NCBI GenBank assembly: GCA_040755715.1
Contig: JBFLXN010000181.1
Span: 1 to 5,291, forward strand
DNA: 5,291 nucleotides
Direction: 5' to 3'
DNA from: JBFLXN01 sp040755715 [NCBI: Candidatus Edwardsbacteria bacterium]
GTDB taxonomy: Bacteria > Edwardsbacteria > AC1 > JBFLXN01
Position numbers and translations under genes: made by a program. A model generated the notes under the pieces. The model was not told where the DNA came from and made no database searches. It saw nothing but the letters and a program-made list of their open reading frames with translations. How positions within the stretch are numbered: the first letter of the stretch is position 1; each line of letters opens with the position of its first letter. Positions 1,680 to 5,139 of the stretch are shown in pieces.

Positions 1680-2993
1680 ATGTTTGAAAAAATAACCAAT
1701 GTGTTTCGCATTCCGGAGTTGCGTCAACGTATTCTCTTTACTTTGGGGCTGTTGATTGTCTATCGTTTAGGGGGACATATTCCTTCAGCCGGCATTAATA
1801 CCGCCGCTTTAGCCGAGTTCTTTCGCCAGGCACGCGGCACCTTCTTCGGTCTGTATGACCTCTTTGTGGGTGGCAATTTGAGACGAGCAACAATCTTCGC
1901 CCTAGGCATAATGCCCTATATCTCTGCTTCTATTATCATGCAACTATTAGGTGCTGTCTTTCCCTATTTAGAAAAATTACAGCGAGAAGGCGAAGTCGGA
2001 CGGAGAAAGATTAATCAATATACTCGCTATGCCACTGTCCTTCTTTCAATGATTCAATCTTTAGGCATTAGTAGTTTCCTGGAGAGTTTAGCCCCCAGTG
2101 GGGTGCCGGTAGTGCCACATCCAGGTATAAGTTTCAAATTGCTGACGATGTTGACGATGACCTCAGGAACCATTTTTGTAATGTGGCTGGGCGAACAGAT
2201 TACGGAAAGAGGCATTGGTAATGGTATTTCTCTGATTATCTTTATTGGTTGTCTGGATGAGATTCCCAGCTATGTTATGCAAACCTATACAATGTGGCGG
2301 GGGGGGGCACTGCAGCTCGTGCCACTTATCTTCATTTTTGTGGTTATGTTTTTAGTCACCGCCTCCGTAGTTCTAATGACCCAGGCAGCCAGAAAGATTC
2401 CGGTGCAATATGCCAAAAGAATCGTCGGTCGCAAAGTTTACGGTGGACAAAGCACCTATATTCCTTTAGGTTTCAACACCGCAGGGGTAATTCCCATCAT
2501 CTTTGCTTCCAGTCTTTTGGTTTTTCCCGGAACTTTAGCCACCTTTATGAAAAGCGAAAGTATGAAAGTAATTGCAGGCTGGTTTTCACCTCACTCGGTA
2601 GTTTACAATGTAGCTTATGGACTGTTAATTATCTTCTTCGCCTATTTTTATACAGCCATCGTCATTAATCCCGTGGAGTTAGCAGAGAATATGAAAAAAT
2701 ACGGTGGGTTTATCCCAGGAATTAGACCTGGTCAAAAAACTTCCGAATATATAGATAAGGTCTTAACCCGCATCACTCTGCCAGGAGCTATCTTTTTCGC
2801 TTTGATAGCCATTTTGCCTACTGTTCTCTATGCGGCGGCCAATGTCCCCTTTTATTTTGGTGGCACTACGCTTCTAATCATCGTCGGCGTTGCCTTGGAT
2901 ACATTACAACAAATTGAATCACACCTCTTAATGCGACACTACGAAGGATTTATCAAAAAGGGGAAAATTTCGGGAAGATATGGAAGAATGTAG
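1680..2993 (+). CDS. secY: Protein translocase subunit SecY
   Basis: SecY is the ten-helix inner-membrane channel for Sec-dependent export and membrane insertion, working with SecE, SecG and SecA. From the ATG at 1680 the product is 437 residues, typical for the family. MFEKITNVFRIPELRQRILFTL begins as usual (helix 1 at about 18-38). The plug/helix-2 region is at about 62-100 with RATIFALGIMPYISASII. EQITERGIGNGISLI lies near 185. The C4 loop PVQYAKRIVGRKVYGG is near 240, and the C5 loop has GIRPG with Arg349, corresponding to the SecA-contact arginine (E. coli R357). The end is TLQQIESHLLMRHYEGF. The frame stays open upstream to a TTG at 1593, but those 29 codons are hydrophilic repeat-derived sequence without family resemblance, so ATG 1680 is preferred. 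A run of nine G (2299-2307) encodes part of Arg207-Gly-Gly. The TAG stop coincides with the start of the inverted repeat at 2991. Confidence 0.97.
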   Translation: MFEKITNVFRIPELRQRILFTLGLLIVYRLGGHIPSAGINTAALAEFFRQARGTFFGLYDLFVGGNLRRATIFALGIMPYISASIIMQLLGAVFPYLEKLQREGEVGRRKINQYTRYATVLLSMIQSLGISSFLESLAPSGVPVVPHPGISFKLLTMLTMTSGTIFVMWLGEQITERGIGNGISLIIFIGCLDEIPSYVMQTYTMWRGGALQLVPLIFIFVVMFLVTASVVLMTQAARKIPVQYAKRIVGRKVYGGQSTYIPLGFNTAGVIPIIFASSLLVFPGTLATFMKSESMKVIAGWFSPHSVVYNVAYGLLIIFFAYFYTAIVINPVELAENMKKYGGFIPGIRPGQKTSEYIDKVLTRITLPGAIFFALIAILPTVLYAAANVPFYFGGTTLLIIVGVALDTLQQIESHLLMRHYEGFIKKGKISGRYGRM

Positions 2994-3020
2994 TTGATAG
3001 TGTATAGTAGATAGTTGATA
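2993..3020 (+). repeat. Four GTNNATA heptads (left end of the element)
   Basis: Units GTTGATA, GTGTATA, GTAGATA and GTTGATA follow one another with exact 7-nt spacing, sharing GT at positions 1-2 and ATA at 5-7. The first G is the last base of the secY stop codon. Inverted copies (TATNNAC) occur at about 3300-3322. Confidence 0.8.
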
Positions 3021-3024
3021 GTTA

Positions 3025-3304
3025 AGGGAAGGAGAATGCTTCGGTTTGACACAACATACAAGAAAGAGTGCGATTTCCATTTTCTCCAGCATTGCTGAAG
3101 GAAGCAGAGTAGGTTCAGCAAAACCGATTTCAGACGGTATATCCAAATTTCTCTTGGTTTACTGTATAAATTGGTGATTCAATTGTTCGTGGCTCTGGAT
3201 AGCGGTTACCTAACGAAAGATATGTTTGATGACTCTATAATGAATCAGAAATCATAGCAAAGATGCTCTCTAATCTTTCTAGGTCGCAATCCCACAAGCC
3301 ACAA
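3025..3304 (+). pseudogene. Decayed four-helix-bundle protein (23S rRNA intervening-sequence protein family)
   Basis: Frame 1 reads ECFGLTQHTRKSAISI then FSSIAEGSRVGSAK (about 3034-3123), matching the family core FGLT-x-Q-x-RKSAISIPSNIAEGS. The match continues in frame 3 from about 3126 with DFRRYIQISLGLL and later ALDSGYLTKDMFD. It resumes in frame 2 from about 3242 with ESEIIAKMLSNLSRS and HKPQ, a typical C-terminal end. Both frame changes fit single-base losses, the first in the A run at 3120-3123. The N-terminal helix (about 30-40 residues) and any start codon are missing. The intact family is about 115-125 residues, occurs inside 23S rRNA intervening sequences and also as free-standing genes, and is structurally related to the Avd protein of diversity-generating retroelements; its function is not established. 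This copy cannot make a normal protein. Frames were read by eye, so shift positions are approximate. Confidence 0.85.
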
Positions 3305-3324
3305 ACTATAAACTATCAACTAAG

Positions 3325-3966
3325 ATGCAGATAGTTCTGCTTGGTCCACCTGGAGCTGGTAAAGGAACACAAGCAATCCAATTTAGTAAAAAGTTCTCCA
3401 TACCTCATATTTCCACCGGAGATATTCTTCGCCACGCCGTGCAAGAGCAAAATGAACTGGGTCAAGCAGTCAAAGAAATTATGGAAAGAGGGAAACTGGT
3501 TCCAGATGAAATAATGAGTCAACTGATAGAAAAAAGATTACAAAAAGAGGATACAGAAAAAGGTTTCATTTTAGATGGTTTTCCACGGACGATAAATCAG
3601 GCAAAGAAACTGGACGAAATTTTAGCAAAACATAATACAAAGATTGAATGTGTCTTTTATATTGAAGTAAAAGAAAAAAAACTCTTTCAAAGACTTTCTT
3701 CCCGATTGGTATGTGAATCCTGCAAAACACTTTACAATCTAAAGACGAACCCTCCAAGAAAGAAAGGGAGATGTGACCGCTGTGGGGGGAGATTGATTAT
3801 CCGACACGATGATAAAATAGAAACAATTATTGAACGACTGAGAATTTATAGAAAACAAAACAAACCATTGTTGAGATTCTATCAGAAAAAAGGAATAGTT
3901 TTACCCATCAATGGTGAGCTGAGTCCCCAAGAAGTCTTTGCCCAAATGATGGCCATTGTGCCGTGA
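3325..3966 (+). CDS. adk: Adenylate kinase (EC 2.7.4.3), zinc-lid type
   Basis: Catalyses ATP + AMP to 2 ADP in the cytosol. The 213-residue product is standard length for the long-lid bacterial form. The P-loop GPPGAGKGT is at residues 7-15. The AMP-binding segment includes STGDILR (30-36) and the strand/loop GFILDGFPRTINQA (80-93), with Arg36 and Arg88 in the expected places. The lid begins after RLSSRLVC and contains four cysteines at 130, 133, 150 and 153 (CxxC...CxxC), predicting structural zinc. RHDDKIETIIERL near 160-172 is the usual post-lid motif. The ATG lies 2 nt after the inverted-repeat element and has no visible Shine-Dalgarno (CAACTAAG precedes it). The stop overlaps the start of map by 4 nt (GTGA), so the two are translationally coupled. 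Confidence 0.98.
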   Translation: MQIVLLGPPGAGKGTQAIQFSKKFSIPHISTGDILRHAVQEQNELGQAVKEIMERGKLVPDEIMSQLIEKRLQKEDTEKGFILDGFPRTINQAKKLDEILAKHNTKIECVFYIEVKEKKLFQRLSSRLVCESCKTLYNLKTNPPRKKGRCDRCGGRLIIRHDDKIETIIERLRIYRKQNKPLLRFYQKKGIVLPINGELSPQEVFAQMMAIVP

Positions 3967-4721
3967 TTATCTTGCGTTCTGAAAAAGAAATAGAAAAAAT
4001 TGGAAGAAGTTGTCAAATTGTTGAGGAAACCTTCTCAGTCATTGAAGAACTCATTAGACCAGGCGTTAGAACAAAAGAAATAGAGAGAAAAGCCGAAGAA
4101 ATCATTAGACGGAGAGGAGGTTACCCCGCTTTCAAGGGATACAACGGTTTTCCAGGAGCTGTCTGCATTTCCATTAACGAAGAAGTGGTTCACGGAATTC
4201 CCGGAGAGCGAAGACTTGAACCGGGAGAAATAGTGGGAATTGATATCGGTGTTCTTAAAGACGGCTATTATGGCGATGCGGCGAGGACTTATGCTGTAGG
4301 AGAGATTTCTCCCGAGGCCAGGCAATTGCTGGAAGTCACTCAAGAGGCTTTGAAAAAAGGGATTGAACAGGCAGTGGTAGGGAATCGCCTTTTTGATATT
4401 TCTCATACTATTCAATCAATGGTGGAAACAGCTGGTTTTTCAGTGGTAAGAGCTCTTTGTGGACACGGTATTGGTATAGCTTTGCATGAAGAACCACCGG
4501 TGCCAAACTATGGGAAAAAGGGTATGGGGCCAAAACTTAAATCCGGAATGGTATTGGCTATTGAACCAATGGTGAATCAAGGCGACTCTGAAGTAATTAC
4601 ACTTGGTGATAATTGGACAGTTGTTACTAAAGATGGTTCTCTCTCTGCACATTTTGAGGAAACTGTGGTAATTACTGAAGAGGGGCCCAAAATACTTACG
4701 AGACAAATAATAAAAAGCTGA
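3963..4721 (+). CDS. map: Type I methionine aminopeptidase (EC 3.4.11.18)
   Basis: Removes the initiator methionine from nascent proteins at the ribosome. The 252-residue product has the pita-bread fold signature: His77 in NEEVVHGIPG, and metal ligands Asp94 (VGIDIG), Asp105 (YGDAART), His168 (CGHGIG), Glu201 (AIEPM) and Glu232 (AHFEETV), matching the E. coli set D97, D108, H171, E204, E235. His175 in LHEEP is also conserved. Length and absence of a long N-terminal extension fit the bacterial type I enzyme. The start is GTG at 3963, overlapping the adk TGA; no strong ribosome binding site lies just before it, so expression probably depends on coupling to adk. The TGA stop falls inside the first heptad of the AGCNNAN repeat, and the last few residues (QIIKS) may come from that sequence. 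Confidence 0.98.
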   Translation: MIILRSEKEIEKIGRSCQIVEETFSVIEELIRPGVRTKEIERKAEEIIRRRGGYPAFKGYNGFPGAVCISINEEVVHGIPGERRLEPGEIVGIDIGVLKDGYYGDAARTYAVGEISPEARQLLEVTQEALKKGIEQAVVGNRLFDISHTIQSMVETAGFSVVRALCGHGIGIALHEEPPVPNYGKKGMGPKLKSGMVLAIEPMVNQGDSEVITLGDNWTVVTKDGSLSAHFEETVVITEEGPKILTRQIIKS

Positions 4722-4750
4722 AAGCAAAAAGCCAACAGCGAATAGCAAAA
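4716..4750 (+). repeat. Five AGCNNAN heptads filling the map-infA gap
   Basis: Units AGCTGAA, AGCAAAA, AGCCAAC, AGCGAAT and AGCAAAA follow one another without a break. All share AGC at positions 1-3 and A at position 6. The array starts inside the last sense codon of map, contains its TGA stop, and ends one base before the infA ATG. No Shine-Dalgarno is present in it. Confidence 0.8.
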
Positions 4751-5102: not shown

Positions 5103-5111
5103 GATAGTTGT

Positions 5112-5139
5112 GAGTTATGAGTTCGGAGTTATGAGTAAG
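5112..5139 (+). repeat. Four GAGTTNN heptads after rpmJ, forming half of a hairpin
   Basis: Units GAGTTAT, GAGTTCG, GAGTTAT and GAGTAAG are contiguous; a degenerate unit TAGTTGT (5105-5111) precedes them. AGTTCGGAGT (5120-5129) pairs with ACTCTGAACT (5151-5160) with a single G-U, giving a 10-bp stem with a 21-nt loop. No T run follows immediately, so a terminator role is not supported. Confidence 0.75.

Follow-up and report, generated by a model that had tools for sequence, protein, structure and literature searches.

The block between secY and adk in the window (the whole 5,291-nt stretch of DNA analysed here) is probably the decayed copy of a mobile element of ~0.4–0.6 kb, in which a gene for a four-helix-bundle protein (IVP/S23, the protein family of 23S rRNA intervening sequences) is enclosed by mutually inverted arrays of 7-nt units, and which would have moved as a hairpin with the IVP protein. 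Comparisons of genome sequences showed that the gene and its arms behave as one unit, which occupies unrelated sites across related genomes, and that sister species lack it at the corresponding positions. The same comparisons showed dispersed inverted pairs of arrays that lack a gene, and copies located both between genes and inside 23S rRNA. Living relatives of the element are found in many bacteria and resemble a kind of mobile DNA that has attracted little attention.

Anatomy of the block between secY and adk

The gene order in the window is rpsE-rpmD-rplO-secY-block-adk-map-infA-rpmJ. All eight neighbour genes are open frames, each matching its own family. The block and its borders comprise the following features.

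1680–2993, forward strand: secY, the intact upstream neighbour
2991–3023, forward strand: left arm, a period-7 array whose outer 18 nt are inverted to the right arm
3028–3120, forward strand: IVP remnant, frame piece 1 (profile positions 25–55)
3105–3254, forward strand: IVP remnant, frame piece 2 (profile positions 50–99)
3224–3298, forward strand: IVP remnant, frame piece 3 (profile positions 90–114), weak and without a Pfam hit when taken alone
3292–3322, forward strand: right arm, a period-7 array inverted to the left arm
3325–3966, forward strand: adk, the intact downstream neighbour

The outer 18 nt of the two arms (2991–3008 and 3305–3322) match at 17 of 18 positions in inverted orientation. 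The inverted-repeat score of 16 was reached in none of 5,000 Markov-1 simulations (best 13) nor at any of 606 other positions in the window tried with equal spacing (best 10), so that the repeats reported in a preliminary description of this DNA are borne out and lie far above chance. A point missed there is that the repeats are tandem 7-mer arrays. The left arm reads TAGTTGA TAGTGTA TAGTAGA TAGTTGA TAGTT, with the right arm inverted to it. The left arm opens with TAG, the stop codon of secY, and 2 nt separate the end of the right arm from the ATG of adk. The transcript of the block folds with the arms paired (RNA fold z of −4.4). An IVP gene between complementary inverted ends that form an RNA stem is also the anatomy of the 23S rRNA intervening sequences with an S23/IVP reading frame, such as that described in Coxiella (PMC4990558). 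However, the window copy lies between protein genes and not inside a 23S rRNA gene, and it has inverted period-7 arrays on both sides of the IVP gene, as expected of the element proposed here. No Rfam match at gathering scores was found in the window. A sigma-70 promoter within the element was considered and rejected, with one match vs. 1.2 expected by chance.

The three frames match collinearly a profile built from 61 intact relatives. Two of the pieces match PF05635 singly below the gathering score (E values of 4.8e-4 and 1.1e-3), and the third has no PF05635 match alone. When the three frames were joined with X at the breaks, the match rose to 55 bits (E value of 1.1e-14, cut-off 33.8), and TIGR02436 was matched with 47.9 bits (cut-off 24). 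The profile check thus agrees with the earlier assignment of the three consecutive frames to the 23S rRNA intervening-sequence protein family. The first 24–28 profile positions are absent and the frame changes twice; therefore, the gene is dead, and no complete open IVP gene is found in the block. An intact gene, with frameshifts introduced into the source record by faulty sequencing or assembly, is very improbable, as the eight neighbour genes read through and match their families, and the N-terminal quarter of the IVP gene is missing rather than merely shifted.

All five period-7 arrays of the window lie in or at gene spacers; 200 simulations gave 0.2 arrays on average and never more than 1. 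Those outside the block belong to the following features.

1520–1594 (arms 1520–1555 and 1559–1594), no strand assigned: inverted pair of heptamer arrays without a gene, between rplO and secY, score 18
4714–4749, forward strand: single period-7 array of another unit, at the end of map and in the map-infA spacer
5106–5136, forward strand: single period-7 array of another unit, after rpmJ

The array at 1520–1550 is half of the gene-less pair, whose arms are 3 nt apart. The pair has a folding z of −2.46 (3 of 200 shuffles fold equally well), and its 7-nt unit differs from that of the IVP block. It is possibly a gene-less relative of the IVP element. A palindrome-rich stretch, observed by eye, adjoins the pair at 1597–1640.

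IVP genes and heptamer arrays in many bacteria

The placement of the window by SecY is loose, the best relative having 67% identity in a locus without an adk match, and a search for the secY-adk junction in close relatives gave none. Among 80 secY loci, adk follows secY in 58, with an approximate spacer of −4 to 134 nt in these distant relatives vs. 331 nt in the window; the 22 loci without adk were left out of this comparison. No relative of SecY was found in a viral collection, and one IVP protein tried against phages gave no match. A PF05635 search covering 35 of the 80 secY genomes found no match in the genome of the best SecY hit and matches in 18 of the 34 others. The search returned 81 matches, 78 of which were examined, and 61 genes were retained after leaving out 17 that were below the cut-off, interrupted, short or without flanks.

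Inverted repeats were scored by comparing 200 nt on each side of the gene, with a threshold of at least 14. This score was reached by 42 of the 61 complete IVP genes vs. 17 of 210 control reading frames taken from these loci. Period 7 (counted with 14, its multiple) stood above all other periods tested (3 to 15). At a threshold of 12, it was detected upstream of 29 and downstream of 25 of the 61 IVP genes, compared with 0–4 for the other periods. The control flanks also carry period 7 (24 and 29 of 210, or 11–14%); therefore, arrays exist without the gene and are common in these genomes, yet they are concentrated at IVP genes. The GTNNATA ends proposed in the preliminary description are not conserved. 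The ends are instead inverted arrays of 7-nt, sometimes 8–9-nt, units, whose sequence varies by copy: the unit differs between copies, whereas the two arms of one copy match. Units of 8 or 9 nt instead of 7 were seen by eye at five loci (L159, L173, L174, L180 and L464). Within Bacteroidota, the IVP family is present in 157 of 198 genomes, and 20 of the 30 IVP loci inspected have an inverted score of at least 14.

In the secY-region loci, 30 period-7 arrays were counted in 240 kb of the 18 IVP-bearing genomes vs. 6 in 255 kb of the 17 others. Array density correlates with IVP presence across these 35 genomes (rho of 0.39, p = 0.021), with a weak difference in the Mann-Whitney test (p = 0.067); arrays of periods 5, 8, 10 and 11 are similar in the two groups. 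These counts bear on a serious rival explanation, which we consider possible though not probable: the heptamer arrays themselves may be mobile or expanding, by slippage or through RAYT/IS200 enzymes, and the IVP genes may be passengers that came to lie between two inverted arrays or entered through recombination of like arrays. The higher array density in IVP-bearing genomes argues against IVP genes being passengers, as does the occurrence of the IVP family as the cargo in several phyla.

Gene and arms as a unit in one Bacteroidota genus

Ten genomes of one Bacteroidota genus contain 119 IVP matches. After removal of 12 of 118 profile hits, which were duplicates, short or lacking flanks, 106 distinct genes with flanks remained. 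An inverted score of at least 14 was found for 76 of these 106 genes vs. 40 of 1,263 random mismatched pairs, in which the left flank of one gene was combined with the right flank of another. The arm score is below 12 in 20 of the 106. Two-sided flank synteny placed the genes at 44 sites, 19 of them with a single gene, a number that short flanks may have inflated by splitting some sites.

The 7-nt units differ widely between the sites of the genus. For 60 non-syntenic pairs of IVPs at least 60% identical, the mean arm similarity is 11.25, compared with 5.35 in permuted data (s.d. of 0.29, 200 permutations). The four pairs with more than 80% protein identity, all from sites 4 and 17, have a mean arm similarity of 12.2. 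Related IVPs at unrelated sites therefore carry related arms, indicating that the gene and the arms travel together. That the arm unit tracks the IVP subfamily across unrelated sites also speaks against the genes being passengers of independent arrays. Five pairs of copies from unrelated sites were aligned, three of the pairs lying within one genome. On the right side, their DNA homology ends at the arm or close to it; on the left, the limit is either the arm or a conserved motif adjoining it.

A further alternative, which we regard as unlikely, is that the element has no mobility of its own. IVP genes would then be horizontally exchanged host genes, their flanks would be selected as RNA stems for RNase III processing or for control of the neighbouring messages, and slippage would generate the heptamers. 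The strong RNA fold of the block is in keeping with this alternative, as is the excision of 23S inserts by RNase III, which is known (PMC4990558). Comparisons at the same site point in the same direction: the arms of one copy match each other better than they match the arms of sister species (means of 20.2 vs. 16.5; better in 14 of 20 sites and 121 of 200 pairings). The effect is modest and suggests that the match is restored, whether through fold-back copying or through selection for the stem. Against this alternative stand the homology that ends at or near the arms in copies at unrelated sites, the 23 of 75 copies on the strand opposite to both neighbours, and the dispersed gene-less pairs. 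In one case of joint arm turnover (L297, genome G124 at site 0), both arms together differ from those of most sister species, and the IVP gene is retained at 59–65% identity.

The position of the copies relative to their neighbours was counted for 75 elements, one of 76 having been left out for want of both neighbours, with mechanically found open reading frames taken as the neighbours. For upstream neighbours oriented towards the element, the distance between their stop codon and the start of the left arm is at most 14 nt in 36 of 42 cases. Where the neighbour on the other side is convergent, its stop codon and the end of the right arm are at most 20 nt apart in 28 of 31. The window copy, whose arm begins with the secY stop codon, fits this placement. 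The 75 elements are 380–643 nt long, with a median of about 480 nt, and the 332 nt of the window block fit a copy with an internal deletion.

Filled, empty and gene-less sites

The site upstream of a thiolase gene (site 9) is filled in four genomes and empty in five, with one lacking coverage. The gaps at the "empty" sites are 49–60 nt long and contain, by eye, a one-sided array of another unit. Site 17 carries the element in two sister genomes and lacks it in five, the remaining three being rearranged or without a match. G233 alone has the element at site 43; in the nine other genomes, the matched flanks are 9–132 nt apart. Four of these nine junctions were inspected: those of G235 and G124 carry an inverted pair that has no gene but the same GTGATAT-type unit as the G233 element, and the other two have no clear pair. 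Comparison of the core of the G235 pair with three IVP loci gave no support for an IVP remnant. Site 0 is occupied in nine of the ten genomes of the genus, indicating that some sites are old and stable. No target-site duplication was evident by eye at the sites read, where the flanks have diverged. These filled and empty sites, together with the inverted flanks and the arm-bounded homology, support the earlier suggestion that the block is the relic of a small element bounded by the repeats.

Clear gene-less inverted pairs of the GTGATAT type were found in 6 of 20 further regions, picked from short BLAST hits of the searches with sites 43 and 17. A whole-genome pattern of the AGGTGTTAG type gave 2 to 49 matches per genome, with overlaps counted separately, and 0–1 in the backward-read control. 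G234 has about eleven plus/minus pairs of this type whose members lie too close for a gene to fit between them, and one pair that flanks an IVP gene. Matches to AGGTNTTAG number 8–49 in seven genomes with the corresponding IVP subfamily and 33, 9 and 2 in three without it. Matches to GTGATAT number 1–48 in seven genomes with the subfamily and 0, 0 and 3 in three without it, with up to 6 in the backward control. There is thus no tight link per genome between the unit and the IVP subfamily. The excess of tight pairs in G234, the pairs of like unit in G235 and G124 at the site filled by an IVP gene in G233, and the arrays of a unit in genomes without its IVP subfamily all favour the explanation that the arrays move and the IVP genes are passengers.

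A promoter-like motif shared with DNA-uptake and recombination genes

The motif GTAAGG-N15-GCTCTTAC is present within 260 nt upstream of 35 of the 106 IVP genes of the genus, at 17 of the 44 sites. A looser form was found upstream of 39 of the 106 genes, downstream of none of the 106 and in 10 of 496 random windows. The exact form occurs 121 times in ten genomes, compared with no occurrence in the backward control. The asymmetry and spacing of the motif suggest a promoter. The Bacteroidetes SOS boxes GGA-N5-TCC and CTAA-N5-TTAG (PMC8565304) were rejected as its identity, differing in sequence and spacing. Ten motif-carrying loci gave no Rfam match at gathering scores.

In the genus of G222 (L349–L398), each genome has 5–19 motif copies, and the motif precedes an IVP gene in 11 cases (30 loci). 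The 13 motif sites of G222 comprise four IVP genes, ComEC, RecF, RecQ, a GIY-YIG nuclease, three Y1-transposase-like genes, a PAS sensor and one unknown gene; RecF, RecQ and two of the Y1-like genes were named by likeness to scanned homologues. Both scanned Y1-like homologues fall short of the NCBIfam RAYT cut-off, and one of them of the Pfam cut-off too. The motif was also seen at integron integrases (TIGR02249) in two other scanned genomes. ComEC among the motif genes suggests a link to competence, and RecF and RecQ equally suggest one to damage. That Y1 transposases share the motif of the IVP genes is a further point for the IVP genes being passengers. Of 198 Bacteroidota genomes, 14 carry the motif, mostly those of the studied genus and one other with nine copies; the rest have one or two. 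Its presence in so few genomes rules it out as a universal part of the element, and it is therefore host wiring.

Copies on plasmids and in 23S rRNA

A search with one IVP protein matched 24 plasmid records. Ten of these were read, and nine of the ten plasmid-borne copies have an inverted score of at least 15. One of the ten lies between ribonucleotide reductase genes. Three of the ten (L535, L540 and L542) lie inside CRISPR-Cas gene clusters of cyanobacterial plasmids, twice between cas6 and cas4 and once between cas10 and cmr3.

The copy of Azospirillum lipoferum (L543) lies within 23S rRNA. Its arms are 36 nt long and 86% matching, with 7-mers like GACAGAG and GACGGAT, close to the GACAGAT heptamers reported for the Coxiella 23S insert (PMC4990558). 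No rRNA was found in 20 other IVP loci searched. The suggestion that these genes spread as repeat-flanked cassettes is in line with the comparative data, namely the arm similarity of related IVPs at unrelated sites, the filled and empty sites, and the plasmid and 23S copies. Free-standing cassettes and rRNA inserts do not exclude each other, as the Azospirillum 23S copy has heptamer arms of the same kind and the Coxiella 23S insert has heptamers as well. From the shared arms, the arm-bounded homology, the filled and empty sites, the gene-less pairs and the 23S copy, IVP genes therefore look like the cargo of heptamer-armed mini-elements, for which rRNA intervening sequences are one location.

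The function and origin of rRNA inserts were called unclear 25 years after their discovery (PMC4990558), and the part of that text available contains no statement of heptamers as a general feature of IVP genes. The shared anatomy (arms, empty sites, gene-less copies and a motif in one genus) makes the origin and function of rRNA inserts a testable question.

A proposed mechanism and its relation to known systems

In the mechanism that we propose for the decayed element and its relatives, one strand would fold, by pairing of its arms, into a long hairpin. The IVP protein would bind the folded arms, as proposed for RAYT transposases on REPIN hairpins, and would help to copy or insert the folded strand, probably as single-stranded DNA. 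At transcribed sites, the RNA stem would make the insert tolerable, because RNase III can excise it as in 23S inserts. The window copy would have been inserted after the secY stop codon and would then have lost its N terminus and reading frame, leaving the flanking genes intact. More tentatively, and with some doubt on our part, IVP genes across bacteria, rRNA inserts included, could be the autonomous members of one widespread class of mobile DNA with inverted heptamer arms. A four-helix-bundle protein, which is no known recombinase, would act on the folded arms, and the gene-less heptamer pairs would be non-autonomous offspring that spread via single-stranded DNA and that at least one genus expresses together with competence genes.

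The nearest working model for such an element would be the REPIN/RAYT plan of hairpin-forming doublets and a cognate gene, and we infer by analogy that the IVP protein drives the movement in a RAYT-like part. REPINs are likewise inverted doublets dispersed between genes, with the cognate gene beside like repeats and a family-specific pairing (PMC3116915). Gene-less doublets are dispersed in the Bacteroidota genus, and the window has one pair, of a unit other than that of the block. However, the repeats here are tandem 7–9-mers, and the gene encodes a four-helix bundle and not a Y1 (HUH) transposase (PMC3116915). Of the terminal inverted repeats and target-site duplication that mark insertion sequences and MITEs, the IVP element has inverted repeats; no duplication was evident by eye at the sites read, whose flanks have diverged. 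The Avd protein of diversity-generating retroelements has a four-helix-bundle fold related to that of IVP. However, no reverse transcriptase was found among the eight window genes scanned.

Heptameric intergenic repeats have been described in Xanthomonas and Nostoc, those of Xanthomonas often in inverted pairs (70 in Xcc and 75 in Xac, PMC4692102). They are heptamers as here, but the part of that text available does not mention S23, "four helix" or "intervening", and it reports generally no association with mobile elements, which counts against a mobile-element interpretation. The TAACTGA repeats of Beggiatoaceae, Cyanobacteria and Bacteroidetes are intergenic direct arrays of 7 nt, mostly located just upstream of start codons (PMC4679880). 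They differ from the arrays here in having one fixed unit and were interpreted as translational control; S23 and "four helix" are absent from the part of the text available. Similarly, "S23", "four helix" and "intervening sequence" are absent from the available part of the text on the heptamer elements of Geobacter metallireducens (PMC2700814). The proposed element would offer a source for these over-represented heptameric repeats, often inverted in Xanthomonas (PMC4692102, PMC4679880). A published link between heptamers and IVP genes was not found in the open-access literature searched, which is no proof of its absence. The protein XCC0516, whose structure is PDB entry 2gsc, is an IVP homologue from an organism that we take to be Xanthomonas campestris.
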